From contig CANMZA010000002.1 of the NCBI GenBank assembly GCA_947502305.1, forward strand, positions 897,041 through 961,040: DNA of 64,000 nt, read 5' to 3'. Source of the stretch: an uncultured Erythrobacter sp. Lineage in GTDB: Bacteria > Pseudomonadota > Alphaproteobacteria > Sphingomonadales > Sphingomonadaceae. A program made the translations under genes and the position numbers. Shown here one piece after another: positions 7,605 through 29,997 of the stretch; within the stretch, counting starts at the first letter, position 1, and the number at the start of each line of letters is the position of its first letter. The notes under the pieces were generated by a model, which saw nothing but the letters and a program-made list of their open reading frames with translations, did not search any database and was not told the DNA's origin.

Positions 7605-9061
7605 GGGAGCACCTCCTGATCAGGGGTCTGCGAAGCGGGCGTCCCCAAGCGGACTAGGATCAGCAGCGCGAAACTGCCCAAAGCGAGCATCGTCATATTG
7701 CGGAGCGGGTAATCGGTGATCGATTGTAGCGCGATTGCCAGCAGAATGACTGCGCCGCTCCACGCGATCCATCGATCATGTGAGCCGCGCGCCCGCCAGC
7801 TGAGCCAGATAAGCAGCAGCAACCAGCCCGCGATCAAAATGAGGCCGGGCAAGCCAGCTTCAATCGCGACCTCAAGATAATCATTGTGCGCACGGCCCGC
7901 GCGGCGAAGCGTCATGTTCTCCAGCGATTCGTCGATCTGAAAAACATCATCAAATGTGCCCATTCCTGAGCCGGCAGGCCAATATCGGTCAGCGGAATAT
8001 TGCGCATCTTCCCAGATATAAGCCCGCGCATCATCAGTGCCATCGAACCGTTCAATCACATCATTGACGCGGCCGGGCGCAGCAAATGCCGCGGCGGCGA
8101 CAATGCCCGCGATGAGCGCCACACCCATAAGAGCGATCCAGCCGCCACGTTTGCCCGCGGCTGAACCGGATGAACCGCCGGAACGCAGCGCAAAGACAGC
8201 GCGAAGAGCGGAAAGGCCGATAGGGATGAACGCCAAGACCAAAGCGCTTCGCGATTGCGTCAGGACAATCCCAACAAACAGCAGCACGCAAACGCCAATG
8301 CGCACGCCAATCGCAGTCTTACCGAGGCGAGTTGGTGCGGGAAGCAAAGCCGCCAGAGCAAGCGCACCAACCATGAACAGGCCGGTGGAATTGCGGTTTG
8401 CGAAAGTGCCAAACAAAACGCCGGGCATGGGATTTTCTGGGTAAAATACGCCGGTTTCGCTGTTGGAGAGGACTTGCGGGATGCCGATCAGGAAATTCAA
8501 CAGCCCCAAACCGGCAATGATCCAACCCAGCGCGATCAGATGCTGACGCTGCGCGCTCCATCCAATTGTGAGCAGCGCGATGGGCACGATTAACGCGGAT
8601 AGCGCAAGCAGCGTGCGAAGCGGATCAACGCTGGCCATTGCCCAGCCGGCCCCGCCAATTAGATCGAAAGATTGCGCCATCAATTCGCGGCCCGGCAATG
8701 CTGTCCAGACACTCGCGGGCAGAGGCACAAGGTGGATGATGGGGAGCAGCAATGACAGGGCGATCAACCCGGTCACCGCGAGCGGCGCCATTTTCCAGAA
8801 GTCAAAAAATGCACGGCGATGGAATGACAGCGCGATGAGTGCAGCAAGTTGCACGATCAAATTGGCGAGACCGTATTTGGACCCGCCTCCACCAAAGGCC
8901 ACCGCAAACACCATTATCGCCGCAATAGCCCAGAATGCCCCAGCGGCTTTGGCAAGAAATTCCCCTTCGCCGAAGCTCGCGCCAAAATTGCCTGTGTCAA
9001 AGCGGTGCGCATCGGAATGCTGGGGGCGGCGATATGTAGGCACGGACTTAGCCAAGAACAT
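7601..9061 (-). CDS. O-antigen ligase/Wzy-like membrane protein
   Basis: A 486-residue polytopic membrane protein with ten or more hydrophobic segments. Its large periplasmic loop carries the Wzy_C/WaaL-type sequence GSGMGTFDDVFQIDE and RAGRAHNDYLEVAIEAGLPG. The His in AHNDYLE followed by an EAGLPGL segment is the usual ligase/polymerase signature. It either polymerises repeat units or transfers the polymer to an acceptor. A second protein of this type is encoded at 29998-31383, so the region has two. A terminator-like hairpin (9093-9119) separates it from the small secreted-protein gene upstream. Confidence 0.85.
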   Translation of the reverse strand: MFLAKSVPTYRRPQHSDAHRFDTGNFGASFGEGEFLAKAAGAFWAIAAIMVFAVAFGGGGSKYGLANLIVQLAALIALSFHRRAFFDFWKMAPLAVTGLIALSLLLPIIHLVPLPASVWTALPGRELMAQSFDLIGGAGWAMASVDPLRTLLALSALIVPIALLTIGWSAQRQHLIALGWIIAGLGLLNFLIGIPQVLSNSETGVFYPENPMPGVLFGTFANRNSTGLFMVGALALAALLPAPTRLGKTAIGVRIGVCVLLFVGIVLTQSRSALVLAFIPIGLSALRAVFALRSGGSSGSAAGKRGGWIALMGVALIAGIVAAAAFAAPGRVNDVIERFDGTDDARAYIWEDAQYSADRYWPAGSGMGTFDDVFQIDESLENMTLRRAGRAHNDYLEVAIEAGLPGLILIAGWLLLLIWLSWRARGSHDRWIAWSGAVILLAIALQSITDYPLRNMTMLALGSFALLILVRLGTPASQTPDQEVLP

Positions 9062-9163: not shown

Positions 9164-9436
9164 TTAGGTGCCTGGTGATTGACCGTCGTCGTCACCGCTG
9201 CTCACAGCAATGATACCGGCAACCGCAGCAGCAGCTGCGAGAAGCGCGATGAGGATGCCGGGAGTGCCGCGCAGCTCTTCGCCTTCAGCCGAACGAGCCA
9301 TGCCAGGCTGTGAAGCCGTGCTGGTGTAGACTGGTGTGTTGTCGCTCGCGCGGGTGTTAGCCTGAGCAGCGATTGGCGCGAAGGCCATGCTGGCCGCAGC
9401 GGCGGTCACCATCAAACGAGACATTTTGTTGATCAT
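9164..9436 (-). CDS. Small exported protein, unknown function
   Basis: About 90 residues. An N-terminal signal peptide (MINKMSRLMVTAAAASMAFAPIAAQA) is followed by a short polar stretch (NTRASDNTPVYTSTASQPGMARSAEGEELRG). A strongly hydrophobic segment (ILIALLAAAAAVAGIIAVSSG) and an acidic tail (DDDGQSPGT) complete it. Small proteins of this layout occur in sphingomonads, but I know of no function. The start at 9436 is preferred over the upstream ATG at 9472 because it gives a canonical signal peptide and has AAGG upstream. A terminator follows, so it is probably transcribed alone. It sits between the EPS and lasso genes, but no link is evident. Confidence 0.6.
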   Translation of the reverse strand: MINKMSRLMVTAAAASMAFAPIAAQANTRASDNTPVYTSTASQPGMARSAEGEELRGTPGILIALLAAAAAVAGIIAVSSGDDDGQSPGT

Positions 9437-9576
9437 CGAATTAACCTTTTTTTGCACCGTATTACGGGACAACCCCTAGTGCAGTGCAGCATGCTTGACA
9501 ACCATCGGTTACGAAAAAAGGGTAAATGAACCCTGATTACGGGCTGTTTTTTGTAAATTCTCGTCACCTAACGCGG

Positions 9577-10098
9577 TTAGTTGGTCTTGCCGCGCTCATT
9601 CTTGGGCTGCGAATCGCGGTCAAGGCGCGAATCGGAGAGAATCAGGTGGTAGCGATCAATATCTCCGCCAGTGATGATATGCTCGCCGCCATCGCGGGTC
9701 TTCAGCAAGAGCCATGCATGCGCGCCGAAGTCGCCATCTTTTGGGTGTTCGACGCCGATCTGAATCTCGCTGGCATGACCAAGCGCCGATAGCCAGTTCT
9801 GACCCGCCACCGCCTGAACCATACAATCGCTGCGCCACGGCAAGCGATCAGACAGGCGCGGTAGTATATAAGTCATCCGTGCGAGTTCTGCAGGCGAAGG
9901 GGTGCTTTGCGGATCAGTTTCATCCTTGGCGCTGCGGTTGCGATCTGGGATCGTCTTCGCCTCAAGCTGAGCGAAAATGATTCGCGCCCGCACCAATTCC
10001 CAAAATCCGCGCGCGCAATAGTGCGCCAGCCACGGCAGATCCTTCAAGCCCGGCTTCTGCCCCGGCGGCGGAATGTGAAGAGATTGCGCGGAAGTCAT
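9577..10098 (-). CDS. Lasso peptide leader protease B2 (transglutaminase-like)
   Basis: About 173 residues. The C-terminal half is the lasso B2 (transglutaminase-like Cys protease) domain. The catalytic triad can be read as Cys92 (RSDCMVQA), His127 (FGAHAWLLL) and Asp146 (TGGDIDRY). The enzyme cleaves the leader from the precursor so that the cyclase can act. The N-terminal 60 residues (LPWLAHYCARGFWELVRARIIF) are also typical of this family. It is a stand-alone B2; the B1/RRE domain is a separate gene at 13677. It is transcribed divergently from the cyclase gene across a 127-bp intergenic region. A GTG at 10131 in frame is an alternative start; the ATG at 10098 has AGG seven bases upstream. 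Confidence 0.88.
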   Translation of the reverse strand: MTSAQSLHIPPPGQKPGLKDLPWLAHYCARGFWELVRARIIFAQLEAKTIPDRNRSAKDETDPQSTPSPAELARMTYILPRLSDRLPWRSDCMVQAVAGQNWLSALGHASEIQIGVEHPKDGDFGAHAWLLLKTRDGGEHIITGGDIDRYHLILSDSRLDRDSQPKNERGKTN

Positions 10099-10225
10099 TG
10101 TGTGCCTAGTTGCTTGGCGTCTCGTTGGCACATCATTGGCACAGGCGCAGCATGTGTGCCAAGCGCCGCATCGAAGCCTTGCGGCAAAGAGGCCGGCTAA
10201 GGATTACAGGATAGGACTGACTTAG

Positions 10226-12139
10226 GTGTCTGCAATAGGAGCCATTTTTGCGGTTGGCGGCGTCGGCGCGGGGGAACTCGGCGCGATGGAGCGAACGCTT
10301 GGCCAGGTCCGGCATGATGCATCGGACACATGGATGTCAGGCCGGATCGGTTTGGCGGCCTGCACATTGCACACCAATGGCGAATCGCGGGAACGCGCCC
10401 AGCCCGATGTCAGCGATGATGGCCAAATCGCGGCGGTCTTCGATGGGCATCTGCTCAATCCGATTGAGATCGCCAAAGACCTTGAGGCCAAAGGCGTACG
10501 CCTGCGCAGCCGAGCCGATGTTGAGATTGTGCGCCGCGCCTATGAAACATGGGGCGCGGCCTGCGCCGACCGGTTTCAGGGCGAATTTTCTCTCATCATA
10601 GCCGATTGCCGCAAAGGGCATGTTTGGGCCGCGCGCGATCACATGGGGTTTTTGCCGCTCTATTATAAGGAAGAACAAGGACGCCTGATAATAGCATCCG
10701 ATTTCCGCACTATCGCCGCCCTGAGCAAGACCCCGCTTGAGCCGGATCATCATTATCTGGCGCAGGTCATCACGAAACGCTGGTTCCTGCGCGATACAAC
10801 CCCGTGGAAAGGGGTGAAGCGGATAATCCGAGCGCACACGCTGGCCTATGACGGGCAGACAATCAAAACGCGCAAATATTGGAATCCGCCAACCGAAATC
10901 ACGATCCGCTACAAATCAGAGGCCGAATATGCCGAGCATTACCGCGAAGTGCTGTTCGATAGTGTGCGGCGCTCCTCACGCTGCGATACACCGATCGGCA
11001 TCGCGGTTAGCGGCGGCCTCGATTCTTCCGCGCTTTATTGTGTGGCGGACAGGTTGGAGGAAGCGGGGCAGCTGCTCGCACCGGGCTTTACCGGCTATTC
11101 ACTAGCGGCATCAGAAGACGGCAATGCTTATGAGCTGCCATATGCGCGCGCTGTTGCTGATCATATTGGGCGCGAATTGACCGAAGTGCCTTTGTTCGAT
11201 CCTGAGATTGATTGGTACACGCAGGACGCCGTTTGGCATCGCGGCATCCCTATCGCGTCGAACGGGGCGATGATGTTGGGGATGGAAAAACGCGCGGTCG
11301 ATGACGGATCACGGGTTATGATTGGCGGAATTGGCGGCGATGAATGGTTGCAAGGCAGCAGCCTATATTACCGCGAATTTATCGCTGAGCGGGACGCCCG
11401 CGGATATTTTCGCGCATTGCGGCGCGATGGCGCGGCCTTGGGCTGGCCATCGACATTGAAACAGGCGCTGCGCCACACCAGCGCCGAATTCACCCCCGGC
11501 CCGATTCGCCGCAAGATCAGCCAGTTTCTGCGCGGGCGGCGGCGGCGCGGTGATCCGCCGCTGAGTTGGTTAACGCCGGAATTGCGGCGCGCCATGATTG
11601 AGGCGGAGGAGGCGTATCTTGAGGCTCTGCCAGAGGATGCGGTTGCTTGGTCAAAGCATAATATCGTCACGTCCCCGTTTAGTGACTTGTCTCATTCACT
11701 GATGCGCCGCCAGCGCGCGGCGATTGGATTCGAGGCGCGCCATCCCATGCTCAGCCGCGCTTTCATCGAATTTTCGATGCGCACCCCTGCTGAAACCAAG
11801 CGGAAGGGTGATGTATCGAAAGCCCTGCACCGCAAGGCGATGGACGGCATCCTGCCGCCGGTTATTCTGGACCGGAAAAGTAAGGCTAACTTCACTAACA
11901 CCAAGATCGATGCGCAATTTGCCGATTATGTCCGCAAGAATGCGGCGCAGCAGCTTCCCGAATTGTGCGATGTTAAGGCGCTGGAGCCAATTCTGGACAT
12001 CGATTTTACCGCCCCAGAAGGCGATTATTGGGCATGGGAAATTTGGGGTCTTTACGCATCCGCAGCATTTTTGTATCAGGATAACTGCGTAACTGAGATT
12101 AACCCTGCCACTGGGGTGCAACAGGACAGGATCCAATAA
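10226..12139 (+). CDS. Lasso peptide cyclase (asparagine synthetase-like, LasC)
   Basis: A 637-residue protein with an N-terminal glutamine-amidotransferase-like region and a C-terminal asparagine-synthetase domain. The ATP-pyrophosphatase loop is present at residues 262-268 (SGGLDSS). The protein begins MSAIGAIFAVGG and has no Cys2, so it cannot use glutamine as ammonia donor, as is normal for lasso cyclases. The expected reaction is adenylation of the Asp side chain of the precursor and attack by the freed N-terminal Gly, closing the macrolactam. The start is GTG with AGGA upstream. The stop codon overlaps the precursor start (TAATG), which ties the enzyme to its substrate. Confidence 0.9.
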   Translation: MSAIGAIFAVGGVGAGELGAMERTLGQVRHDASDTWMSGRIGLAACTLHTNGESRERAQPDVSDDGQIAAVFDGHLLNPIEIAKDLEAKGVRLRSRADVEIVRRAYETWGAACADRFQGEFSLIIADCRKGHVWAARDHMGFLPLYYKEEQGRLIIASDFRTIAALSKTPLEPDHHYLAQVITKRWFLRDTTPWKGVKRIIRAHTLAYDGQTIKTRKYWNPPTEITIRYKSEAEYAEHYREVLFDSVRRSSRCDTPIGIAVSGGLDSSALYCVADRLEEAGQLLAPGFTGYSLAASEDGNAYELPYARAVADHIGRELTEVPLFDPEIDWYTQDAVWHRGIPIASNGAMMLGMEKRAVDDGSRVMIGGIGGDEWLQGSSLYYREFIAERDARGYFRALRRDGAALGWPSTLKQALRHTSAEFTPGPIRRKISQFLRGRRRRGDPPLSWLTPELRRAMIEAEEAYLEALPEDAVAWSKHNIVTSPFSDLSHSLMRRQRAAIGFEARHPMLSRAFIEFSMRTPAETKRKGDVSKALHRKAMDGILPPVILDRKSKANFTNTKIDAQFADYVRKNAAQQLPELCDVKALEPILDIDFTAPEGDYWAWEIWGLYASAAFLYQDNCVTEINPATGVQQDRIQ

Positions 12140-12267
12140 TGACTAAGACTATTGAAAAAGCGAAATACGAAGCTCCAAAGCTCACAGTTTTTGGTTCTGT
12201 TCGTAACCTGACCGGCGGTAGCGGTACACGTTTCCGTGACGGCACCGTGGCTGATTCGCGCTTCTAA
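12139..12267 (+). CDS. Lasso peptide precursor (42 residues)
   Basis: A 42-residue peptide overlapping the end of the cyclase gene (TAATG). The leader contains the RRE-recognition motif YxxPxLxxxGxxxxxT exactly: Tyr10, Pro13, Leu15, Gly19, Thr25. Thr25 is at position -2 of the predicted cleavage site after Gly26, as in characterised lasso precursors. The predicted core is GSGTRFRDGTVADSRF (16 residues), with Gly1 and Asp8 forming an eight-membered ring and an eight-residue tail. Cleavage one residue earlier would give a nine-membered ring but would put Thr at -1. Possible phosphorylation sites for the downstream kinase are Ser2, Thr4, Thr10 and Ser14 of the core. Topology and bioactivity are unknown. 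Confidence 0.9.
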   Translation: MTKTIEKAKYEAPKLTVFGSVRNLTGGSGTRFRDGTVADSRF

Positions 12268-12318
12268 TTTGCGGCCCTCCGCTGCCTCTGATTGAGGCGC
12301 GTAGGATGCAAAACATAA

Positions 12319-12350
12319 GGCACCCCGTTTTGGGGTGCCTTTTTGTTTTT
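12319..12350 (+). terminator. Rho-independent terminator after the lasso precursor
   Basis: A perfect eight-base-pair stem (GGCACCCC / GGGGTGCC, 12319-12326 and 12332-12339) with a five-base loop is followed by five T, G and five more T. It lies 51 bp after the precursor stop and would end the cyclase-precursor transcript before the kinase and B1 genes. It may act as a partial terminator that raises precursor transcript stability. Confidence 0.85.
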
Positions 12351-12780
12351 GGGCGTAAGCCTTTTAAAATATTCAAGTTTTCGTTATGTGCCGCGCTCGC
12401 TCTGCCCAGCAGAATTGGGCGGTGTGCGAAATCTCTTCGCTGCGAATCGCCCGGCCTCTACGCCTCCAGCCGCGCCGAATGCCGCTTCGCTGGACCAGGC
12501 GTGGGATGCGTAGCCGGGGCGAGAGATCAATCGAACTCGGCCGGGTCTGCAATTGCGAAAGCCGCAGCCCAGCAGCACGCAAAATGATCACTACGAATCG
12601 GTTCGATTCGCGGCGAATGCGATCATCTCCGAATCGCTGCCGGATATGCTTAATCGCTGCGCCAAATCCGTGAATTCGCGATATCGGGATGTTGATACTT
12701 GTTTTTACAGGGTTCTTTTCGCCGGCGCGGCAAACTGTCTGTTGGCGGTTCGCGGCGTAAGGGGCTAGGGGATCGGCGCG
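12351..12780. other. 430-bp region with no confident gene, lasso locus
   Basis: This stretch between the terminator and the kinase gene holds no gene I can support. In the plus frame from 12514 to 12771 there is an 86-codon open stretch with a protein-like composition (for example NDHYESVRFAANAIISESLPDML and FYRVLFAGAANCLLAVRG). It has no ATG near its beginning, only a TTG at 12553. It could be a decayed gene, or chance. The region must hold the promoter for the kinase-B1 pair if the upstream terminator is efficient. Confidence 0.4.
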
Positions 12781-13680
12781 ATGCAATTGAACCTTGAAAC
12801 GCCCCGCTCACAAGAGCCTTTGCCGACACAGCCTTATGATCGCTGGGTCTCCCCAGAAGGGCATTGTCAGGCTGAGTTCCACAAACCGGGCGCGGGCTTT
12901 CTCATCCGTTTTCCCGGCCAAGCGGACTTTCTGATTGCCGAACCACAAGGCGGGTCTGATTACCGCGTGATCGGCTGGCCCTTGCCCGAATGCGATGAAG
13001 CGGCAATCATCAACCTGTTCCACAACGCTATCCAACCGATCTTGGGCAATCACACGGGCGGATTGTTCCTCCACGGCAGCGCTGTCATCGCGCAGGGCGA
13101 GCGGGGCGAGCAGGCCGAGCAGGGCAAGCAAGACGGCGAAGCGTCCGGAGCAATCGCGTTTCTGGGCCTCTCACGTGGGGGCAAGACCACATTGGCTGGT
13201 TCCTTCGCCAAAGCGGGGCGGCCGTTCCTGACCGAAGATGTCATCGATTTGCAGGTTTCGGGCGGGCAATATTTGCTTCAACCCAAACGTTCCAAATTGC
13301 GATTGTTTGCCGACAGTGCGCGGCATCTTCTGGGCGAGGATACGCAGATCAAAGACGCAGATATGAAGCAGGACGTTGAAGCAGGCAGCGCATTGCCGTT
13401 TGCAGATCACGCCGTGCCTTTGCGCCAAGTCTATGTCTTGGGCACAGATCACCGCGCCCCTTTGGCGATACAGCGTTTTTCTATGCAAGAGGCGCTCAGC
13501 GCTTTGATGCCGCATGCCTTTATTCTGGATGTAGAGGACAAGCCGCGCCTCAAAGGGCATTTTGCGCGGATGGCTGACCTGTCTCAGGACATCGCTTGCT
13601 ATGCTCTTGACTTTACCCGTGAGTATGCGGAATTGCCGCGTGTTCGAGAAGCAATTCTGGACAATTTGCGGGGCAATTGA
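12781..13680 (+). CDS. HprK-like kinase of the lasso locus
   Basis: A 299-residue protein related to HPr serine kinase/phosphorylase. The P-loop GLSRGGKTTL lies near residues 128-137, and LTEDVIDLQ near 152-160 corresponds to the second HprK nucleotide-binding region. Related kinases in paeninodin-type clusters (PadeK, ThcoK, SyanK) phosphorylate Ser at the end of the lasso precursor. Here the precursor ends in Ser-Arg-Phe, so the acceptor is uncertain. The gene has AGGGGA upstream of its ATG and overlaps the B1 gene by four bases (ATGA). Membership of the family is secure; the modified residue is inferred. Confidence 0.85.
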   Translation: MQLNLETPRSQEPLPTQPYDRWVSPEGHCQAEFHKPGAGFLIRFPGQADFLIAEPQGGSDYRVIGWPLPECDEAAIINLFHNAIQPILGNHTGGLFLHGSAVIAQGERGEQAEQGKQDGEASGAIAFLGLSRGGKTTLAGSFAKAGRPFLTEDVIDLQVSGGQYLLQPKRSKLRLFADSARHLLGEDTQIKDADMKQDVEAGSALPFADHAVPLRQVYVLGTDHRAPLAIQRFSMQEALSALMPHAFILDVEDKPRLKGHFARMADLSQDIACYALDFTREYAELPRVREAILDNLRGN

Positions 13681-13994
13681 TGCCCTGCGACCTTGGGGAA
13701 AGACCGGAACTGCGCATGCAATTAAGCGATCGTTTCACTTGTTCTGATGATGTTGTCGCCCGCGAAGTGGGCGGCGAAACGGTCTTGCTCGATTTGTCGA
13801 GCGGGCAGTATTTTGGACTGGACATTATCGGCGGCAGAGTTTGGGAATTGCTGTCAGAGCGCAGCCAGGATCTCAAAGAATTGTGCGATCAGATAGAAGC
13901 CGAATTCGACGCACCGCGCGATCGTATTGAGGCCGATTTGATCGCGCTGGCCAAGCAATTGCAAGATCAGGAATTGATTGCGCAGGCTGCTTGA
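13677..13994 (+). CDS. Lasso B1 / PqqD-like RiPP recognition element
   Basis: A 105-residue PqqD-family protein: an N-terminal strand-rich segment (SDRFTCSDDVVAREVGGETVLLDLSSGQYF), the motif LDIIGGRVWELL, and C-terminal helices. B1 proteins bind the YxxPxL leader motif of the precursor and deliver it to the B2 protease and cyclase. The gene overlaps the kinase gene by four bases, so kinase and B1 are co-translated. It ends 3 bp before the convergent ABC exporter gene. Confidence 0.9.
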   Translation: MMPCDLGERPELRMQLSDRFTCSDDVVAREVGGETVLLDLSSGQYFGLDIIGGRVWELLSERSQDLKELCDQIEAEFDAPRDRIEADLIALAKQLQDQELIAQAA

Positions 13995-13997
13995 TCG

Positions 13998-15674
13998 TCA
14001 GACTTCGCTTGAACTTTCGGTAAACACCCCATTCGGGCCAAGTTTGATCACTCTGTTCGCCAGCGCCAAGCTGGCGGGCCGGTGGGTGATGATAATGACT
14101 GTGCGGCCTTTCAGGGACTCGACGCAGCTTTCAACAAAGGCCGCTTCGCCTTCCAGATCATACATGCTGGTGGCTTCATCCAAGATATAGATTGGCGGAT
14201 CACGATACAGCGCGCGCGCCAGTGCGATCCGCTGCCTTTGTCCGCCTGATAGACGGACGCCGTGATCGCCGATTTCGGTGTCGATCCCGTTTGGCAGGGC
14301 GACAATGAATTCTTCTGCCTGAGCCAATTTCGCAGCGTTTCGGATGGCGGCCTCGCGCCCCTCAGAAGGCTGCCCGAAGGCGATATTGTCGGCAATGCTG
14401 CCATTAAACAGCAAGGCGCGTTGCGGCACATAGCCAAATTGCCGGCGCAAATCCTGCACCTGAAAATCGGCGATATCTGTCCCGTCCAGCGTAATTGTGC
14501 CCGCGCTGGGCAGGTAAAAGCGCAACAGCAACCGAACCAGCGTCGATTTGCCCACGCCGTTTTCCCCGGTCAGTGCAATGATTTCTCCTGGTGCAATGGT
14601 AAGGTTTAGGTCGGTGAAAACGGGGGATCGTTCTTGATAGCCAAATTGCACCTGTTCGAACCCAATTGCGCCGCGCGCACGTTCCAGCCGGATGCCGCCA
14701 GAATGTCCCGGTTCAGGCTCTAATGCGAGCACATCTTCTAGCCGCGCCAATGTGCCGCGCGCCATTTGGTAAGAGCCATACATATTGGCGAGCGCGCCAG
14801 CTGGCCGCGTCAGCAGCGCAGCGTAAAGCAGGAAGGCAAACAGTTCGCTTGGCGTGTTTTGCCCTTGGGAAAGTTGTTCGCTGCCGACAATCAGAACCGC
14901 GATCGCCGCGAGCGCCGCCAACAGCGCCATCACCGGGCCAATCGCCGCATTCAATTGCGCTTGATTAACGGCCAGCATGCGTGAATTTTCTGCCGCTTCG
15001 GCAAATTCGCGGCGGTGGTGCGCTTCGCTGGCAAAGGCTTTGATCGCGGGCAACATTTCCAAATCGCGCTCCGCGATTGCGATCAGTTCCACCTCTGCCG
15101 CGCGCACTTTGCTGGAAACGGTCCTCAGCCGCCGCCCCGCCAGTTTCATCATCAAGATAAATACCGGTATGAGCAACGGAACGATCACCGCCATCGCAGG
15201 ATCAATCCAGAACAATACGGCGGTTGCGCCCGCTGCTGTCAAAATCATCGCCGGGGCATTGGCGATCGTATTGGCGAGAAAATCGCTAAGATTGCCGACT
15301 TCGTATGAGGTCAGCGCAAGGACATCGCCGCGCCGTGCGGAATCGTGAAAATCCAGCTGCATCATCTGGACATGGTTGTAGATCCGCTTGCGCAGTTCGG
15401 TGAGGATCGTGGTGGAGGCGCGCTCAGACAAAATAGCCGCCAGAATGTTTAGCGCGGTGAGAGCAACCAAGGCGATCACCAGCAAGGTCAGGGTCTGAGT
15501 AAATTCAAGGGGCGCTGCGCCAGCGCTCTGCGGTGCAGCCACGCCGCCAAGGATTTGCGCCGCCAACCAAGGGACCACCAAAGTCGCCGCTGAACTCAAA
15601 ATAGTAAGCGCGCTGATGAGCCCTAGTTGCCAGCGGAAACGGCGCGCCCATTCAAGCCAAAACCCTACGCTCAT
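13998..15674 (-). CDS. ABC exporter (fused permease-ATPase) of the lasso locus
   Basis: A 558-residue half-transporter. Residues 1-300 hold the six-helix membrane domain and residues about 325-558 the ATPase: Walker A GENGVGKST, the Q-loop segment FGYVPQ, signature LSGGQRQRIALARAL and Walker B IYILDEATSMYD. The ATPase is intact, so the protein is probably functional as a homodimer. It is the expected LasD exporter that removes the mature lasso peptide and gives self-immunity. Transcription is convergent with the kinase-B1 genes, and the gene follows the nucleotidyltransferase gene by 18 bp. A lipid A or peptide exporter is an alternative, but the context favours lasso export. Confidence 0.88.
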   Translation of the reverse strand: MSVGFWLEWARRFRWQLGLISALTILSSAATLVVPWLAAQILGGVAAPQSAGAAPLEFTQTLTLLVIALVALTALNILAAILSERASTTILTELRKRIYNHVQMMQLDFHDSARRGDVLALTSYEVGNLSDFLANTIANAPAMILTAAGATAVLFWIDPAMAVIVPLLIPVFILMMKLAGRRLRTVSSKVRAAEVELIAIAERDLEMLPAIKAFASEAHHRREFAEAAENSRMLAVNQAQLNAAIGPVMALLAALAAIAVLIVGSEQLSQGQNTPSELFAFLLYAALLTRPAGALANMYGSYQMARGTLARLEDVLALEPEPGHSGGIRLERARGAIGFEQVQFGYQERSPVFTDLNLTIAPGEIIALTGENGVGKSTLVRLLLRFYLPSAGTITLDGTDIADFQVQDLRRQFGYVPQRALLFNGSIADNIAFGQPSEGREAAIRNAAKLAQAEEFIVALPNGIDTEIGDHGVRLSGGQRQRIALARALYRDPPIYILDEATSMYDLEGEAAFVESCVESLKGRTVIIITHRPASLALANRVIKLGPNGVFTESSSEV

Positions 15675-15692
15675 GATTTCGCTTTCATGATT

Positions 15693-16871
15693 TTATCTGC
15701 CCCCATGCCCGGAGCGCCCCTGCGCTACCCGCGCAATCGCGCGTCCAGCCGTTTCAATGACCAATCGGCCTTGCAGCAAAAATGTGGGCCAACCGCTTGC
15801 GGCCGGGTATTTCTTTATGAGGTGATCTCGCGGTGCCAATCCGCGGGTCATCAACAGCTGCGCCTTATTGGACAAACCTCTGGTTCGGCGCAGATTGAGC
15901 CAAAATTGCGTTAAGCTGTCCCTACTGGTGAAATAGGTATGCAGATCAGGATTTAACTGGCCTTGCTCCAATTTCGCGAGAGGCTGTGCAGGCAGGTGAG
16001 TGCCAAGGTCTTGCTGTGCACCGCGCAGTGCCTCCGCCACGAGCGGGCCCGCGCCTTCACGCGCGCAATGCGACGTAAGCTGATCCCAATCTTCATCTTG
16101 CATATTCGCAACCATTAGGTCGAAATCGACAGACCAAATCAATCGTTTGGCGCTGCTAAGGCGGCCATTCTCGGCCTGATAGCCGTGCTGCGCGTGCCAT
16201 TTTTGATTGGTGACGGCATGCATGATCATGGTCGCTATGCTGGGGCGAAAGGCGCCCTCTCCAAAGCGCGGGATCGGCTTTCTTTGCGAGAAGAATTCGC
16301 CAATTGGCAGGACGCTATGCAGCACGGCGCGATCCGATGGCTCCCAATGCAAATCGATGGAATGAACAAAAAATCCCGCCGTATCGAGCAGCCAGCTTTC
16401 TTGAAAATAAAGCCCGTGCGGCCCTTTCTCGCGGTACCAGCCGAGCTTTTCAAAAATCTCTCTAGTGCGCGCAGCATTTTCAGGTCTGACCAACAAATCG
16501 GTATCGCCGCGCCTGCGCGCCGCCGGTTTGTCGTGGAACGAATAGGCGAGCGCGGTGCCTTTCATCAGGACCGATTCAATGCCAGCCGCGTTCAAAGCCT
16601 CCAGAATATTTGCAACAGCATCGCGGTGAGTGCTTTCCCACAGCACGATCAGGCGCGCTTCCTCTGCGATCCGATCGAGCAAGGGCAGCGGCCACGTGTT
16701 CAGCCGATCCGCATATTCGTGGAGGATCAAAGGAATGCCGTGAAATTCAATTCGTGACCACACAGTCTGCCAATCGGAGGCGAAATCTGTGCGCCACGCA
16801 AATGGTTTTCCCGCGCGCAGATCGCGTAGAGCCTCCGCCAAAAATCCATCAACTGATGACGTATCCATCAT
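15693..16871 (-). CDS. Nucleotidyltransferase-family protein of the lasso locus
   Basis: A 392-residue protein of the uncharacterised nucleotidyltransferase family (NTP_transf_5-like). The catalytic metal site reads RRRGDTDLLV, with Asp123 and Asp125. It follows VLMKGTALAYSFHDKP, which matches the usual KG-x(n)-DxD layout. Such genes recur in paeninodin-type lasso clusters, where they have been suggested to modify the peptide further; no function is established that I know of. It is the first gene of a minus-strand pair with the exporter. An ATG at 16871 is chosen over a TTG at 16898. Assignment to the lasso system rests on position and known co-occurrence. Confidence 0.8.
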   Translation of the reverse strand: MMDTSSVDGFLAEALRDLRAGKPFAWRTDFASDWQTVWSRIEFHGIPLILHEYADRLNTWPLPLLDRIAEEARLIVLWESTHRDAVANILEALNAAGIESVLMKGTALAYSFHDKPAARRRGDTDLLVRPENAARTREIFEKLGWYREKGPHGLYFQESWLLDTAGFFVHSIDLHWEPSDRAVLHSVLPIGEFFSQRKPIPRFGEGAFRPSIATMIMHAVTNQKWHAQHGYQAENGRLSSAKRLIWSVDFDLMVANMQDEDWDQLTSHCAREGAGPLVAEALRGAQQDLGTHLPAQPLAKLEQGQLNPDLHTYFTSRDSLTQFWLNLRRTRGLSNKAQLLMTRGLAPRDHLIKKYPAASGWPTFLLQGRLVIETAGRAIARVAQGRSGHGGR

Positions 16872-17024
16872 GTGCTTTGCTGTGATCGATCCGGACAAGG
16901 TTGATGGTGAGAGGCTGCGTGGATGCGCTGACTGATAGCATAATGCGCCAATTGCGCCATTTTGGCCAGAGCCTAGGCTCTTGCTTCGCTGCGAGTGACG
17001 GGCTTTGCGGCGGGGTTGCAGCGG

Positions 17025-22011: not shown

Positions 22012-23244
22012 ATGTCAGTCTCTGGCCAAATTGATGGCAGCAAAGACGCGCCCACTCTCAAAATCGGCCTGTTGTGGCACACGTTTTTTTCAGAGAATCT
22101 CGGCGTTGGCGCTTTGACGATCGCCAATTCATCGCTGATTGCTGAGGCTGTGATTAAGGCGGGCTATCGCCCGATTTTCCATCTCTTCGGCTCACGCGGA
22201 GAACTGGAATATAGCAGCGAGTGCGGCCACGAAAATCACTTTAGCAATGTTGGCTACAAAGCGCTCGCCAACCCTTTCTCCTCGCTCCACCGCGAGATGC
22301 GCGGCTGCGACATTGTCTTTGATATTGGCGCTGGCGACAGTTTTTCGGACATCTATCCGTGGAAGCGTTTCAACCTCATTCTCGCATCCAAAGCCGCCGC
22401 GCGCATGGCGGGTGTTCCGCTTGTCTTTAGCCCGCAAACAATCGGCCCCTTCTTTTCTGGCCGCGCCAAGATCGCTGGCAAGGGGGTGATGAATATGGCG
22501 GACCATATTTTTGCCCGTGACGAGGCGTCTTACGCGGTGCTCAAAGAAATGGGGATGGAGGAGACGTCTTCGCTGACAACGGATGTTGCCTTTGCGCTGC
22601 CGTTTGACGCGCCAGCCGATAAGGAAAGCCGCGACCTTGGCACCGGACCGATCAAAGCAGGCATCAACGTTTCGGCCTATCTGTACCGGCATGCCGATGC
22701 GCCGACAGACAATGTTCGACTGACAGTGAATTACCGCGATTTGGTTGAGACCATTCTTACAAGACTGACCGGCGATGAAAGATATGAGGTGCATCTCGTG
22801 CCGCATGTTTTGAAGCGCTCTCAACCTTATGAGGATGATCACAGCGTTGCCGAAGAACTGCATCAAAAGTTCCCCAGCACCATCCTCCCGGCTCGTTTCC
22901 ATGGCCCATCAGAGGCGAAGAGCTATGTCGCGAACCTCGATTTTCTAGCGGGTAGCCGGATGCATGCGACGATTGCTGCAATCTCTTCAAATACGGCGGT
23001 TTTGCCGCTAGGTTACAGTCGCAAATTCAATGGTTTGTACGATTCAATTGGCTATCGCCGGAACGCCGATTTGACGGCGGAAAACAATGATCAAGTGATT
23101 GCCAAATTTGATGCAGCATTGGCCGATCTTCCGGGTTTGCGCGCAGAAGCGGTCGCCGCCAATGCGGAAGCTCAACGCCGGCTTAACCTATACCGAACCT
23201 CGCTGGAGGAGCGGATTGCGAGATTGGTGAAGGCCCGTGCTTGA
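22012..23244 (+). CDS. Polysaccharide pyruvyl transferase family protein
   Basis: A 410-residue protein of the CsaB/PssM-like family. It begins IGLLWHTFFSENLGVGALTIANSSLI and contains DIVFDIGAGDSFSDIY, VFSPQTIGPFF and the C-terminal GSRMHATIAAISSNTAVLPLGYSRKF. Members transfer pyruvate from phosphoenolpyruvate onto sugar hydroxyls as ketals, adding negative charge to the polymer. A good ribosome-binding site (AAGGAAG) precedes the ATG. The last eight bases overlap the FrhB-like gene, so the two are probably co-translated. Confidence 0.88.
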   Translation: MSVSGQIDGSKDAPTLKIGLLWHTFFSENLGVGALTIANSSLIAEAVIKAGYRPIFHLFGSRGELEYSSECGHENHFSNVGYKALANPFSSLHREMRGCDIVFDIGAGDSFSDIYPWKRFNLILASKAAARMAGVPLVFSPQTIGPFFSGRAKIAGKGVMNMADHIFARDEASYAVLKEMGMEETSSLTTDVAFALPFDAPADKESRDLGTGPIKAGINVSAYLYRHADAPTDNVRLTVNYRDLVETILTRLTGDERYEVHLVPHVLKRSQPYEDDHSVAEELHQKFPSTILPARFHGPSEAKSYVANLDFLAGSRMHATIAAISSNTAVLPLGYSRKFNGLYDSIGYRRNADLTAENNDQVIAKFDAALADLPGLRAEAVAANAEAQRRLNLYRTSLEERIARLVKARA

Positions 23245-24466
23245 TATTGAAACGATCAAGGCAAATGGCCTGTGCGCCGGTTGCGGTTTGTGCGCCGGGA
23301 TAGGCGATCAAAGCGAGCCTGCGATTGTGATGCAGGATTCGCCAGAAGGGTATCGGCGTCCCGTCAGGCAGCGCGAGAGCAGCCCGCAAGAAGCGCGCGT
23401 CATCAGTGACGTTTGCCCCGGCGCGCGCATTGAGCACGACCCCAGTTCGTTTGACGCAGAGTACCACCCGATTTGGGGGCCATTGGTAAAGGTCAGGCTG
23501 GGATGGAGCACAGACCCCGCTTTGCGTCAGAACGCATCGTCAGGCGGCGGATTGTCTGCAATTCTTGGCTATTTGCTCGAAACGGGCCAGATTGATTATG
23601 TGGTTCAGACCTCGGTTTCCGAGACTTCGCCGATCCGCAATGCACTCACCATCAGCACCGGCCAAGACGGCGTATTTCACGCGGCTGGTTCACGCTATGC
23701 GCCGTCATCGCCTTTAGAGGATATTGGCGCGCGGCTTGATGCGCCGGGCCGCTTCGCTTTTGTTGGAAAACCCTGCGATGTTGCGGGCCTGCGGCAGCTG
23801 TCGCGGCATGATCCCCGCGTGGATGAAAAAGTGCCGTTCATGTTGGCGTTTATGTGCGCAGGCGTCCCCAGCTATCGCGGAACCTCCGCCTTGCTGGAAG
23901 CGATGGGCGTCGAAGATGAAAGCGCCGTCACCGCCTTTCGATATCGCGGCGATGGCTGGCCCGGATTTGCGACGGCAGAATTATCCGATGGCCGCAAGCA
24001 GACGATGGATTACGATACAAGCTGGGGCAATATCCTGAACAAGCATTTGCAGTTCCGCTGCAAAATTTGCCCCGATGGGATCGGCGAATTTGCGGATATC
24101 GTTTGCGCAGATGGGTGGCATTTTGACGAACAAGGCTCCGCCAGCTTTGAAGAGCGCGAAGGGCGCAGTTTAATTCTGACGAGAACGATCAAAGGCGAGG
24201 ATTTGCTGACCAAGATGATCGGCAGTCACGCGATCATGACAGAGCCAACAACGACCGAAGCGATGATCGGGATGCAGCCTTATCAAGCGCATCGCAAAGG
24301 CTTTGTCTGGTCCCGGCTGACCGCCATGGCGGCGTTGGGCAAAAAATTGCCGAAATTCCGCCACCTCAAATTGGGGCGCAATTCCAGAAGTTTTGGGTTG
24401 GTAAGAAACGTGAAAAGTTTTGGCGGCATGTTGCTGCGCCTGATCAAGAGAAATGAACTGGTCTAA
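23237..24466 (+). CDS. FrhB-like Fe-S flavoprotein (F420 hydrogenase beta-subunit family)
   Basis: A 409-residue protein. The N-terminus has a [4Fe-4S] ferredoxin-type motif: Cys13, Cys16, Cys19 (LCAGCGLCAG), with a further CP pair at VCPGARI near residue 60. The body matches the coenzyme F420 hydrogenase/dehydrogenase beta-subunit fold (RQNASSGGGLSAILGYLLETG, FVGKPCDVAGLRQL, HLQFRCKICPDGIGEFADIVCADGW). FrhB-like proteins occur next to pyruvyltransferases in many bacterial polysaccharide clusters, where their reaction is unknown. The start is GTG, overlapping the pyruvyltransferase gene. It ends 16 bp before the convergent sulfotransferase gene. Confidence 0.88.
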   Translation: MLDIETIKANGLCAGCGLCAGIGDQSEPAIVMQDSPEGYRRPVRQRESSPQEARVISDVCPGARIEHDPSSFDAEYHPIWGPLVKVRLGWSTDPALRQNASSGGGLSAILGYLLETGQIDYVVQTSVSETSPIRNALTISTGQDGVFHAAGSRYAPSSPLEDIGARLDAPGRFAFVGKPCDVAGLRQLSRHDPRVDEKVPFMLAFMCAGVPSYRGTSALLEAMGVEDESAVTAFRYRGDGWPGFATAELSDGRKQTMDYDTSWGNILNKHLQFRCKICPDGIGEFADIVCADGWHFDEQGSASFEEREGRSLILTRTIKGEDLLTKMIGSHAIMTEPTTTEAMIGMQPYQAHRKGFVWSRLTAMAALGKKLPKFRHLKLGRNSRSFGLVRNVKSFGGMLLRLIKRNELV

Positions 24467-24482
24467 AACAGCCTCGCCGCAC

Positions 24483-25391
24483 TCAGACCGCTATTTCATA
24501 GCCAAGCGCGGCCAGATCAACCGGTGCATATTGCTGGAGCCTCGCGTTCGATGCGCCGAAATGCCCGGTCAGTTTTGCTGCGACCGCATCGTTCATGCGC
24601 GCATCGGCACGCGCTTTGCCCCAAGTCCAGCGATAGGCGGCGCGCTCAAGCAGATTTCCCAAAGGATCAAGAATACCGGAAGAACGCGGATTGAATGGAC
24701 CCGGCCGCATCGGGCTCGACATCCGCAAAAGCGCGACCCCGCTTGCCGGAGGACTAACGCCGCTAGCAGAAACCGCGCCGAGCTCTAACTCCGCCTCGCT
24801 TTGCTCAAGACCAACATGCGCGCAAAGCAGGCGCAGATAGTGCGCACGGTCCCGTGCCAACAATTCCTGCGGCAGGACTAGGACATTTTCCGACCCGAAC
24901 AGATCCGCATACAATTGCGCCAGCCGATCAAATTCCAATGTGCGAAGATCAAACCAGAAATATCCCGGCTCCGGCTCAAAATTGAGATATTCCTCGATCG
25001 AAAGCTGCCCGCCGCGTTTGATATATTGCAAATAAATCGACTTCATAATCGGGCGCTGCGCACGCACCGTCAGCAGCACTTTCGCACCCGGGCAGGACGC
25101 CGCCAATCTGCCAGCTAAGGCCGCACTGTCCCGCGATCCCAAGAGAATATTGCCCGACAAGATCTCTGACGAAACAACATCGACAATCCCGGATTTGCCA
25201 TCCGCTCTCAGCGCGGCAATCCGCGATTTTGCGGCCTCTGCATCGAAATTGAATTCATGCGGCCGGACGAGCAAATCATCAATTTCGCCGTGATCCAGCA
25301 ATGAGCTAAACAGACGGCTTTCGGCAAAGACTGTGCTTTGCAACCAGCTTGTCGCGGTTTTGTGAAAGCCGGGATGGACCAGCAAAGTCAT
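24483..25391 (-). CDS. Sulfotransferase-family protein
   Basis: A 302-residue protein. The N-terminal HPGFHKTATSWLQ resembles the PAPS-binding loop (GxHKTGTT) of sulfotransferases, and VLLTVRAQRPIMKSIYLQYIKRGG resembles the 3'-phosphate-binding strand-helix. It probably transfers sulfate from PAPS to the EPS. The start at 25391 gives an ATGA overlap with the flippase gene, which strongly supports translational coupling. No PAPS-synthesis gene is seen in this window. Confidence 0.78.
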   Translation of the reverse strand: MTLLVHPGFHKTATSWLQSTVFAESRLFSSLLDHGEIDDLLVRPHEFNFDAEAAKSRIAALRADGKSGIVDVVSSEILSGNILLGSRDSAALAGRLAASCPGAKVLLTVRAQRPIMKSIYLQYIKRGGQLSIEEYLNFEPEPGYFWFDLRTLEFDRLAQLYADLFGSENVLVLPQELLARDRAHYLRLLCAHVGLEQSEAELELGAVSASGVSPPASGVALLRMSSPMRPGPFNPRSSGILDPLGNLLERAAYRWTWGKARADARMNDAVAAKLTGHFGASNARLQQYAPVDLAALGYEIAV

Positions 25392-26770
25392 GGAGCCGTA
25401 TTTCCTTCGATCGGGCGCGCTGTGCCTGTCCAAATGCCAATGCCCAGCTTACGCTGTACCACCCCGTAGGCGATGACATTGCGCAAGAGCAAGATTGTAG
25501 AGATGCAGGCCGCGATCCCTTTCAGCCCGCCCATCTGTGCGGCGATAGGCACACAAATCAGCAGCAGTGCGGTTCCGCCTACAGTGATCGCCAAATTGAT
25601 CCGTTCATGGCCGGACATTGCCAAAACCAACCCGCAGGGGCCGGTTAAAGTGAAAGCAAGCTGTCCAACAATCAGGATGTAAACGAGAGGCAGAGCGGCG
25701 CGAAATTCTTCGCCAATTTGGTCGAGTATGAAACCGCTGGCCGCCAAAAGCACCAGAGCCATCGGGACCGCTGCCGCGGTACTCAAGCGAACGGCGGAAC
25801 GCGCGAGCAGAGCGACTTGGTTCCGGTCGTCGGCGTGAAAGGCGGTGCTGATTTTGGCGGAATAGACTGAAAAAAGCCCGATTGAGATGATCTGTAATGT
25901 CATCGCAATCTGCACCGCGACCCTGTACAATCCGGCCTCTGCGGCCCCTAAGGTCGAAGCGGCAACGGCGAGGCCGTACCAATCGCCAATGCTGTTGGCG
26001 ATCCCTACACCCCAGAGCGGGACCGAAGAAATCATGACGGAGCGAAGCGGGATTGCGACGGCGTCTGGGCCTCGTGCAACATGCCGCCGCATGCCAAGGG
26101 CCCCAGCGGCGATGGATAACAGGGCAGCGATTGCGGCCGCCCACAAAGCCTCTTCCACCGAGCGAGCAAACCCTGTTGCAAGTGCCAATGCAGTGGTCAG
26201 CGGGATCGTCACAGCCGCAATGATTTGCCCGAATTCAAAGCGGTGTTGAGATCGCAAGAGGCCGCCAAACAAAAGCGCCCCGCCGCGGCCCACCAGCAAA
26301 ACGCACAGGACCAGCAAAAATTCTCGCGGGACTTCAGCGCCGAATGCAAAATCCCACACAAACGCCCCGCCGAACCAGAGCAAAAGCGCAATCGTTCCTA
26401 GCAAACCTGCTGCCAAAGCCGCGACCCTCAAGACAGAGCCCAGCGTCAGCTTTGCCTGCGTCGCAGCGGTTTTGGCAAAGTGGCGCACCACGCCAACCTC
26501 AAGGCCCATCAAGCCAATCACAGCGAGAAAAATTGCCGATTGGCTGATGAGCGCGAATTGCCCATTGGCCGCCGCGCCCATCCTGCTCGCGATGAGGAAT
26601 GTGACGACAAAACCGGACAAGACAGCCACGCCCCGGATGATCAGCGCCGCAATCGCCGTGCGGTGCTGATCAACCTTGCGAGCCGTGGTCCTAAAAAGGC
26701 GTTTCGCCCCGCTGATCAAACTGCTCCTGTCGCCGCAAATTCTTTCCAAAAGCTGCGGTGTCAGAGCCAT
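25388..26770 (-). CDS. Wzx-type oligosaccharide flippase
   Basis: A 460-residue polytopic membrane protein with 12-14 hydrophobic helices, of the MATE/oligosaccharide-flippase type (FVVTFLIASRMGAAANGQFALISQSAIFLAVIGLMGLEVGVVRHFA and the later LPLVYILIVGQLAFTLTGPCGLVLAMSGHERINL). It would flip lipid-linked EPS repeat units to the periplasm. It is co-translated with the sulfotransferase. An ATG at 26770 is preferred to the TTG at 26779. The 120 bp upstream, up to the spike gene stop, hold no recognisable terminator. Confidence 0.88.
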   Translation of the reverse strand: MALTPQLLERICGDRSSLISGAKRLFRTTARKVDQHRTAIAALIIRGVAVLSGFVVTFLIASRMGAAANGQFALISQSAIFLAVIGLMGLEVGVVRHFAKTAATQAKLTLGSVLRVAALAAGLLGTIALLLWFGGAFVWDFAFGAEVPREFLLVLCVLLVGRGGALLFGGLLRSQHRFEFGQIIAAVTIPLTTALALATGFARSVEEALWAAAIAALLSIAAGALGMRRHVARGPDAVAIPLRSVMISSVPLWGVGIANSIGDWYGLAVAASTLGAAEAGLYRVAVQIAMTLQIISIGLFSVYSAKISTAFHADDRNQVALLARSAVRLSTAAAVPMALVLLAASGFILDQIGEEFRAALPLVYILIVGQLAFTLTGPCGLVLAMSGHERINLAITVGGTALLLICVPIAAQMGGLKGIAACISTILLLRNVIAYGVVQRKLGIGIWTGTARPIEGNTAP

Positions 26771-26893
26771 TTTGGGCAAGCGGTTTAGTTGTCACGCGCA
26801 GCAGCTAGGCCCGAATGTCGCGTGCCGATCTGATTGTCCAGCTTTGTATGCGGCACGGACCTAGCTCTGCTCATGCTCTGAGAAACTTCGCAG

Positions 26894-29401: not shown

Positions 29402-29667
29402 CAAGCGCAGGCCACGATGTCAGTTGCGGTCGTGCCAGAGGCGCGAACATGGCTGGCCCGGACATAAATGTAACCGCCAGCAGGAACGTTTTCGAACGTC
29501 ACATCAGCCTCCCCGTCCTTTGTGCGCAGCGTCACACGGCCTGCACCGCCGACATAAAGGTATTTTGAAACGCCCGGCAATGCATCGCTGTCATTGGGGG
29601 AAACAGCAAAGGCGTTCTCGCTTGGCGCCAGGATTGATTTGGCGGAATTTTGGAATTCGTCAGACAT
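29401..29667 (-). CDS. Spike base protein, RcGTA GhsA (Rcc01079)-like
   Basis: An 88-residue protein resembling the spike base family of Rhodobacter gene transfer agent and related phages. The recognisable segments are ENAFAVSPNDSDALPGVSKYLYVGG, then VTFENVPAGGYIYVRASHVRASGTTATDIVA. In R. capsulatus the homologue GhsA and its partner GhsB form capsid head spikes that bind the cell capsule. Here it is directly coupled to the large beta-helix protein, and no capsid, portal or tail gene is nearby. A ribosome-binding site (GGAAAGG) precedes the ATG at 29667. The name rests on remembered family sequence; a profile search would settle it. Confidence 0.78.
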   Translation of the reverse strand: MSDEFQNSAKSILAPSENAFAVSPNDSDALPGVSKYLYVGGAGRVTLRTKDGEADVTFENVPAGGYIYVRASHVRASGTTATDIVACA

Positions 29668-29902
29668 AAAAATAACCTTTCCGTGCAGATACAATCATCA
29701 ATATAACCAAATAGGTTAATTGTAGGAAAGCTCTTTCTTTGCCCAATTATGATTCTCCAAAAAGGAGCGGGGCGGGGTGTCCAATTGTGAGAAAATTGCT
29801 GGCGATGTTAGTGTAGAAAGGTTCAGCGAAAAGTGGTAGTTCGCCCCGGCTAACGATGGGACGGCTTGGTGGAGGCCATCTTGTCCTCAAGGCCATTTCG
29901 CC

Positions 29903-29948
29903 CTCATTGCTGTGGCCGGATCGATCTACATCCGGCCACAGCAATGAG
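29903..29948. repeat. Perfect 19-bp inverted repeat with 8-bp loop
   Basis: The left arm CTCATTGCTGTGGCCGGAT (29903-29921) is exactly complementary to the right arm (29930-29948), separated by CGATCTAC. There is no T-run on either strand, so it is not a standard intrinsic terminator. It lies in the 330-bp gap between the spike-base gene (minus) and the Wzy-like gene (plus), 49 bp upstream of the latter's start, and would form a strong hairpin in its 5' leader. Nothing else in this gap was recognised. Confidence 0.97.
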
Positions 29949-29997
29949 TAGGCGACAAAAAATGCCGGGAAACCGGGGCCGCCAACTGAGAGTTTGT

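Follow-up and report, generated by a model that had tools for sequence, protein, structure and literature searches.

The stretch of DNA analysed here (the window) comprises 64,000 nucleotides of contig CANMZA010000002.1 (assembly GCA_947502305.1, positions 897,041 to 961,040 of the forward strand) from an uncultured Erythrobacter sp., and carries a lasso-peptide locus at window positions 9577–16898. Judged from its genes and their conservation, this is a real, functional-looking lasso pathway, a new member of an Erythrobacteraceae family and a variant of the kinase-bearing kind. Every gene of the set named in the initial annotation (B2, cyclase, precursor, kinase, B1, ABC exporter and nucleotidyltransferase) was recovered at its place. 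The features are as follows, with the strand and the supporting evidence in parentheses.

9577–10131 (−): B2, leader peptidase, a transglutaminase-like Cys protease (NF033537 lasso_biosyn_B2, 5e-13, above cut-off; PF13471, 2e-16)
10226–12139 (+): C, lasso macrolactam synthetase with an asparagine-synthetase fold (Asn_synthase, 1e-40; lass_lactam_cya, 5e-70, a score that falls under that model's narrow cut-off)
12139–12267 (+): A, precursor of 42 residues (NF033521 lasso leader, 3.9e-6, above cut-off)
12139–12216 (+): leader part of A, MTKTIEKAKYEAPKLTVFGSVRNLTG, with Thr at −2 (NF033521; ratio of nonsynonymous to synonymous polymorphism, pN/pS)
12217–12264 (+): core of A, GSGTRFRDGTVADSRF, with a predicted Gly1–Asp8 ring and Ser2 (pN/pS; conservation)
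12317–12350 (+): terminator-like hairpin between A and K (11-pair stem, then a T-rich tail)
12351–12780 (+): A–K gap, the site of a protein arginine methyltransferase (PRMT)-like gene in many relatives (no trace in the window locus)
12781–13680 (+): K, HprK/PEPCK-fold kinase with His98, P-loop GLSRGGKTT and Glu152–Asp153 (family alignment; structure model)
13680–13994 (+): B1, PqqD-like leader-binding protein, or RiPP recognition element (RRE) (PqqD, 6.6e-18; lasso_PqqD, 4.5e-14, below cut-off)
13998–15674 (−): D, ABC exporter with fused membrane and ATPase domains (PF00664, PF00005; MsbA/HlyB-like)
15693–16898 (−): N, nucleotidyltransferase with the motifs KGTA and RRGDTD (PF14907, 7.3e-30)

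In B2, Cys103 and His138 are invariant in 23 loci and the TGG[DE] motif supplies an acidic residue in the loci that were aligned; a comparison of B2 with the PDB gave no match. The SGGLDS loop of C is invariant, and its residue 2 is Ser, Thr or Ala in relatives, that is, not the Cys2 of a glutaminase. Both motifs of N are invariant in the 23 loci. As a single sequence, K matched nothing in Pfam, NCBIfam or the PDB, and its placement in the HprK fold rests instead on alignment, in which 11 of 20 family members matched Hpr_kinase_C, and on a structure model (predicted local distance difference test score, pLDDT, 92.8) that matches PEPCK and HprK/P structures. His98, Lys135 and Asp153 of K are invariant. 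The stop codon of C and the start codon of A share one base (TAATG), and the stop of K and start of B1 likewise overlap (TGATG); the hairpin (12317–12341 without the full tail) stands 50 bases past A, in a stretch kept in RF-type relatives.

The precursor bears the motif YEAPKLTVFGSVRNLT, which fits the YxxPxLxxxGxxxxxT leader pattern exactly, as the initial annotation had read it. Its core, GSGTRFRDGTVADSRF, has 16 residues and ends in Phe; it starts with Gly and has Asp at position 8, in keeping with the small first residue and the Asp or Glu at positions 7–9 of lasso peptides. Among 14 orthologues with an R-F/L ending the differences are mostly silent, and pN/pS is 0.13 for the leader and 0.27 for the core, indicating that the core itself is under constraint. 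Moreover, more than 50 distinct precursors all have Gly1, Ser2 and the Asp (mostly at position 8, in a few at 9), which supports the Gly1–Asp8 ring closure predicted at the outset. Syntenic orthologues, purifying selection and this invariance collectively argue that the core is not a chance reading frame. A same-genus relative carries the core GSGTRFRDGAVADSRF, and the window's own core is unremarkable beside its orthologues. The apparent novelty of this core, noted in the initial annotation, holds in so far as we found no paper describing the core family in the open-access literature (RODEO-type surveys lay outside the search), but at least 14 close orthologues are present in sequenced Erythrobacter and near kin, including Erythrobacter sp. 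NAP1 and E. longus.

The locus was found in 38 database loci of Erythrobacteraceae and Sphingomonadaceae and so represents a family rather than a single case; further carriers are E. dokdonensis, Aurantiacibacter and Alteraurantiacibacter. The order Wzy-orf102-B2 / C-A-K-B1 / D-N-rmlA is kept in most sampled relatives. The window locus lies among an O-antigen ligase-like gene, a small open reading frame and the rml operon, and the relatives' loci are flanked likewise, by an O-antigen ligase-like gene on one side and the rml operon on the other. The open reading frame at 9164–9472 (−) encodes 102 residues with a signal-like N-terminus and a hydrophobic stretch, belongs to no known family and is kept beside B2 in most relatives. 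Farther along the window, polysaccharide genes occupy 22012–31383, among them a pyruvyl transferase (22012–23244), a flippase-like protein (25388–26779), a protein of 836 residues without a Pfam match (26894–29404) and a second O-antigen ligase-like protein (29866–31383). Isopeptidase and TonB-receptor genes are the mark of the alphaproteobacterial loci for sphingopyxin, caulonodin and astexin. Those loci come from the same bacterial class and have B, C and precursor genes in common with the window; neither an isopeptidase nor a TonB-receptor gene adjoins the window locus, which has an ABC exporter, K and N in their stead, so that the contrast drawn in the initial annotation is borne out.

Several relatives depart from this pattern (L, G and C numbers are our labels for loci, genomes and contigs). 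In L176 (G534) a TAG stop replaces the conserved leader Tyr of the main-locus precursor, and the remaining locus is present. A second, distant type of kinase-bearing lasso locus is represented by L040 and L178, in which the genes are ordered differently; GGTGSLVEGMMMTALMRRA is one of its cores. L173 (G556) and L174 (G489) hold a separate lasso-like set, whose cyclase is 34–35% identical to window C and adjoins precursors with Cys-containing cores (GSCAFLADSF..., GSSFTMLDQFCGG...). L121, from a metagenome-assembled genome of Erythrobacter sp. Ww135, has two tandem precursors (at 1036 and 1232) with an LTCGS junction and, unlike other family members, several Cys in the cores.

The gene content had been likened to that of paeninodin-type loci. 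The loci for paeninodin (PadeK), pseudomycoidin (PsmK/PsmN) and SyanA/SyanK indeed share A, B1, B2, C, D and K with the window, as well as a lasso leader with Thr(−2), and pseudomycoidin also shares N (PsmN). However, the target of the lasso kinases PadeK, ThcoK, SyanK and PsmK is a C-terminal Ser (PMC9266682, PMC8498205), and the window core, which ends in Phe, offers no such acceptor; the likeness thus extends to the gene content and not to the core. The window also differs from these loci in its unlinked second precursor (see below) and in its layout, with C upstream of and overlapping A, B2 divergent, and D and N convergent. Since the kinase-bearing SyanK/SyanA locus of a sphingomonad, Sphingobium yanoikuyae, is already known (PMC9266682), such a set of genes is by itself no novelty among Alphaproteobacteria. 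A closer guide to the function of K may be the bsf cluster of Bradymonas sediminis, which also has N and whose precursor lacks a C-terminal Ser: its HprK-like kinase BsfK phosphorylates core Ser3 and is stimulated by BsfB1 (PMC10368454). Like bsf, the window combines a kinase and N with a candidate acceptor, the conserved Ser2, that lies within the ring and close to the N-terminus; the window differs in having Thr(−2) instead of Ile(−2), Ser2 instead of Ser3 and Glu-Asp instead of Asp-Asp in the kinase, and Ile/Val at −2, a BsfK-type trait, is not found in its precursor. Ser2 is the sole hydroxyl residue present in every core. On this ground, and by comparison with Ser3 of BsfA (PMC10368454), phosphorylation of the ring at Ser2 is the most likely role for K. 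The predicted [M+2H]2+ of the window peptide is 855.919 unmodified and 895.902 with one phosphate.

Precursor searches uncovered a second precursor in the same genome (L080), overlooked when the locus was called complete; the description fits the enzymes and precursor of the window but not the genome as a whole. This gene (contig C1, about 8108–8245; search match at 8108–8227) encodes 45 residues with the core GSGSVGRDGAIANSRNTPGGR and is flanked by an SSS symporter gene on one side and a convergent gene of TauD type on the other; the TauD-like protein might act as a tailoring hydroxylase or might simply be encoded next door. Gfo/Idh and GH42 genes adjoin it as well. No lasso enzymes were found near it (C1:1–19000). 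The two other cyclase homologues of the genome start with MCGI, having Cys2 like glutamine-dependent amidotransferases, which leaves the window cyclase as the only candidate to mature the second precursor. The SSS–TauD site holds a precursor in 12 genomes, and unlinked precursors are under purifying selection (pN/pS 0.22–0.38). In a survey of the genus that covered 114 genomes, 35 with the kinase of the window locus (E below 1e-100) and 79 without, unlinked precursors occurred in 16 of the former versus one of the latter (Fisher 4e-9, kinship uncorrected; counts read by hand from two tables). Among natural arrangements, that of G489 hints most strongly at maturation in trans: in its machinery locus C and the methyltransferase gene have no precursor between them; an S74-fused precursor lies at the SSS–TauD site, and another precursor beside a second cyclase-like gene. 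These observations suggest that one enzyme set may also serve precursor genes elsewhere in the genome.

Many relatives carry the PRMT-like methyltransferase gene between A and K (for example, L035–L038, L082 and L109–L117). In L036, L037, L087, L091 and others it either separates A from K or adjoins an unlinked precursor. It is missing from the window and its nearest relatives, and tblastn with two methyltransferase proteins detected no remnant in the 12351–12780 gap. The pairing tabulated over 42 loci was METHYLTRANSFERASE + methionine: the core contains Met at all 26 loci with the methyltransferase gene and lacks it at 15 of the 16 loci without the gene. Conversely, two or more Arg/Lys residues are found in the cores of 15 of these 16 loci versus 1 of the 26. 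In a phylogeny of C, K and B1, the methyltransferase/Met pairing agrees in five of five independent pairs (sign test 0.0625, the smallest p attainable with five pairs, for a pattern noticed in the same data where it was counted). A distant L040-type locus has a methyltransferase-like gene yet no Met in the core. S-methylation of Met would introduce a positive charge that Arg could replace; methylation of the C-terminus or of Asp at oxygen fits too. Among open-access lasso papers on arginine methyltransferase, none treats such precursors as far as title and one passage tell.

Twelve precursors of relatives run past the core into a Peptidase_S74 domain (3.9e-8, above cut-off). The fusions lie at the main locus (L038, 7928–8287; L072–L074, L123, L124, L132 and L134, of which L072 and L134 are from the same genome) or at the SSS–TauD site (L075, L076, L170 and L171), where fused and unfused precursors alternate between species. 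The Ser...Lys catalytic dyad is kept as SDxRxK in all 12 listed fusions, a listing selected by that motif; sequences in which the motif has been lost, of which the S74 match in L135 is an example, would escape it. The fused domain is under purifying selection (pN/pS about 0.2), and among 385 genomes sampled from the class, leader–S74 fusions occurred only in the window's family. The same domain and dyad are known from phage tail spikes and MYRF, where they act in intramolecular chaperone auto-processing (ICA); unlike in those proteins, the domain here follows a lasso core of about 16–30 residues. MyRF-type S74/ICA domains release themselves by a cut immediately ahead of the Ser (P586|S587) (PMC8326128). 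Such a cut would leave cores of exactly 16 residues, the commonest unfused core length, in five loci; the fused precursors may thus undergo self-cleavage. Because the MyRF-type cut precedes the catalytic Ser, the last residue of the released cores would be Met, Gly or Gln; a role for the domain in providing the kinase with a C-terminal Ser was rejected for the same reason (PMC8326128). An AlphaFold monomer of a fused precursor (4 sequences, pLDDT 62.8; the domain works as a trimer) matched no solved structure. The window's own precursor is without an S74 domain; its ...ADSRF tail was considered as a truncated S74 start (SDxRxK) and set aside, the likeness being faint and without further support. 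No papers on lasso peptides and endosialidase were found in the open-access literature, and open-access lasso papers on tail fiber, by title and one passage, include none treating such precursors.

On the basis of the observed gene set and its conservation, we propose a plausible scheme in which the enzyme activities, the modification site and maturation in trans are inferred. Lasso B1 proteins bind the YxxPxL leader, and B1 would do so with A. K would then phosphorylate the precursor, most likely at ring Ser2, B2 would cut after Gly(−1), and C would close the Gly1–Asp8 lactam around the tail. N may decorate the phosphate, like PsmN in pseudomycoidin, and D would export the peptide. The same enzymes would mature the second, unlinked precursor on C1 in trans. 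We consider it probable, from the sequence evidence, that the locus is a functional class II-type lasso pathway that includes both kinase action on the precursor and maturation of the second precursor in trans.

Three observations weigh against this scheme: Glu152 replaces the first catalytic Asp of the His-Lys-Asp-Asp set in nearly the whole clade, although characterised lasso kinases have Asp-Asp (PMC10368454); Ser2 sits in an invariant LTGGS stretch and could be kept for recognition by B2 or C; and K and B1 may be uncoupled from A by the intervening hairpin. If K and N served another substrate, such as the neighbouring polysaccharide, and the product were an unmodified lasso peptide, the Asp-to-Glu change, the hairpin and the position of the relatives' loci, with an O-antigen ligase-like gene on one side and rml genes on the other, would all find a place. 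However, the overlap of K and B1 makes their co-translation probable, C and A are accompanied by K, B1 and N in the relatives that were retrieved (K being the bait), and BsfB1 stimulates BsfK (PMC10368454); we regard this alternative as unlikely. Less likely still is a plain phospholasso peptide of the paeninodin/SyanA type, in which K would modify the C-terminal residue or one close to it, such as Ser14. The gene complement is the same and the sphingomonad kinase SyanK has a C-terminal Ser as its target (PMC9266682), but the window core ends in Phe, only 2 of more than 50 distinct cores end in Ser, and position 14 is Ser, Thr or Val among orthologues with an intact kinase.

The unlinked precursors, in turn, might be relics or unprocessed peptides and not substrates of the window locus. 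Their genes are short, about half of the machinery-bearing genomes have none, and G537 (L172) has a precursor, with the core GSNGPHGDGGGSKRAGTGPK, but no kinase of the window locus; these gaps count against maturation in trans as well, and the second cyclase-like gene of G489 somewhat weakens the hint from that genome. Relics would nonetheless hardly be expected to show the purifying selection seen here, one conserved genomic site in 12 genomes, a machinery locus without a local precursor (G489), or a core chemistry that tracks the methyltransferase state of the genome. We therefore hold relics to be improbable and prefer maturation in trans.

The family around the window is more unusual than the window core, owing to its unlinked precursors, S74 fusions and methyltransferase–Met pairing, none of which we found described in the open-access literature (most subscription journals and survey supplements lay outside the search). 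A broader and tentative proposal is that one machinery per genome matures scattered precursors, some of them fused to S74 domains whose self-cleavage sets the C-terminus of the core; that the PRMT-like enzyme modifies Met-rich cores, possibly to a cationic sulfonium; and that lineages without the enzyme, such as the window's, use Arg-rich, Met-free cores. A kinase without a C-terminal Ser target offers a clean test case for ring phosphorylation, and the Met/methyltransferase pairing hints at a modification that we did not find described for lasso peptides. If true, a lasso precursor joined to a tail-spike autoprotease would represent a means, unreported as far as we found, of ending the core of a ribosomally synthesized and post-translationally modified peptide (RiPP). 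Discovery of lasso peptides usually relies on reading the precursor that adjoins its enzymes. If precursors are distant and served in trans, the enzymes must recognise the leader alone, and cluster-based surveys would under-count lasso peptides in this bacterial family.

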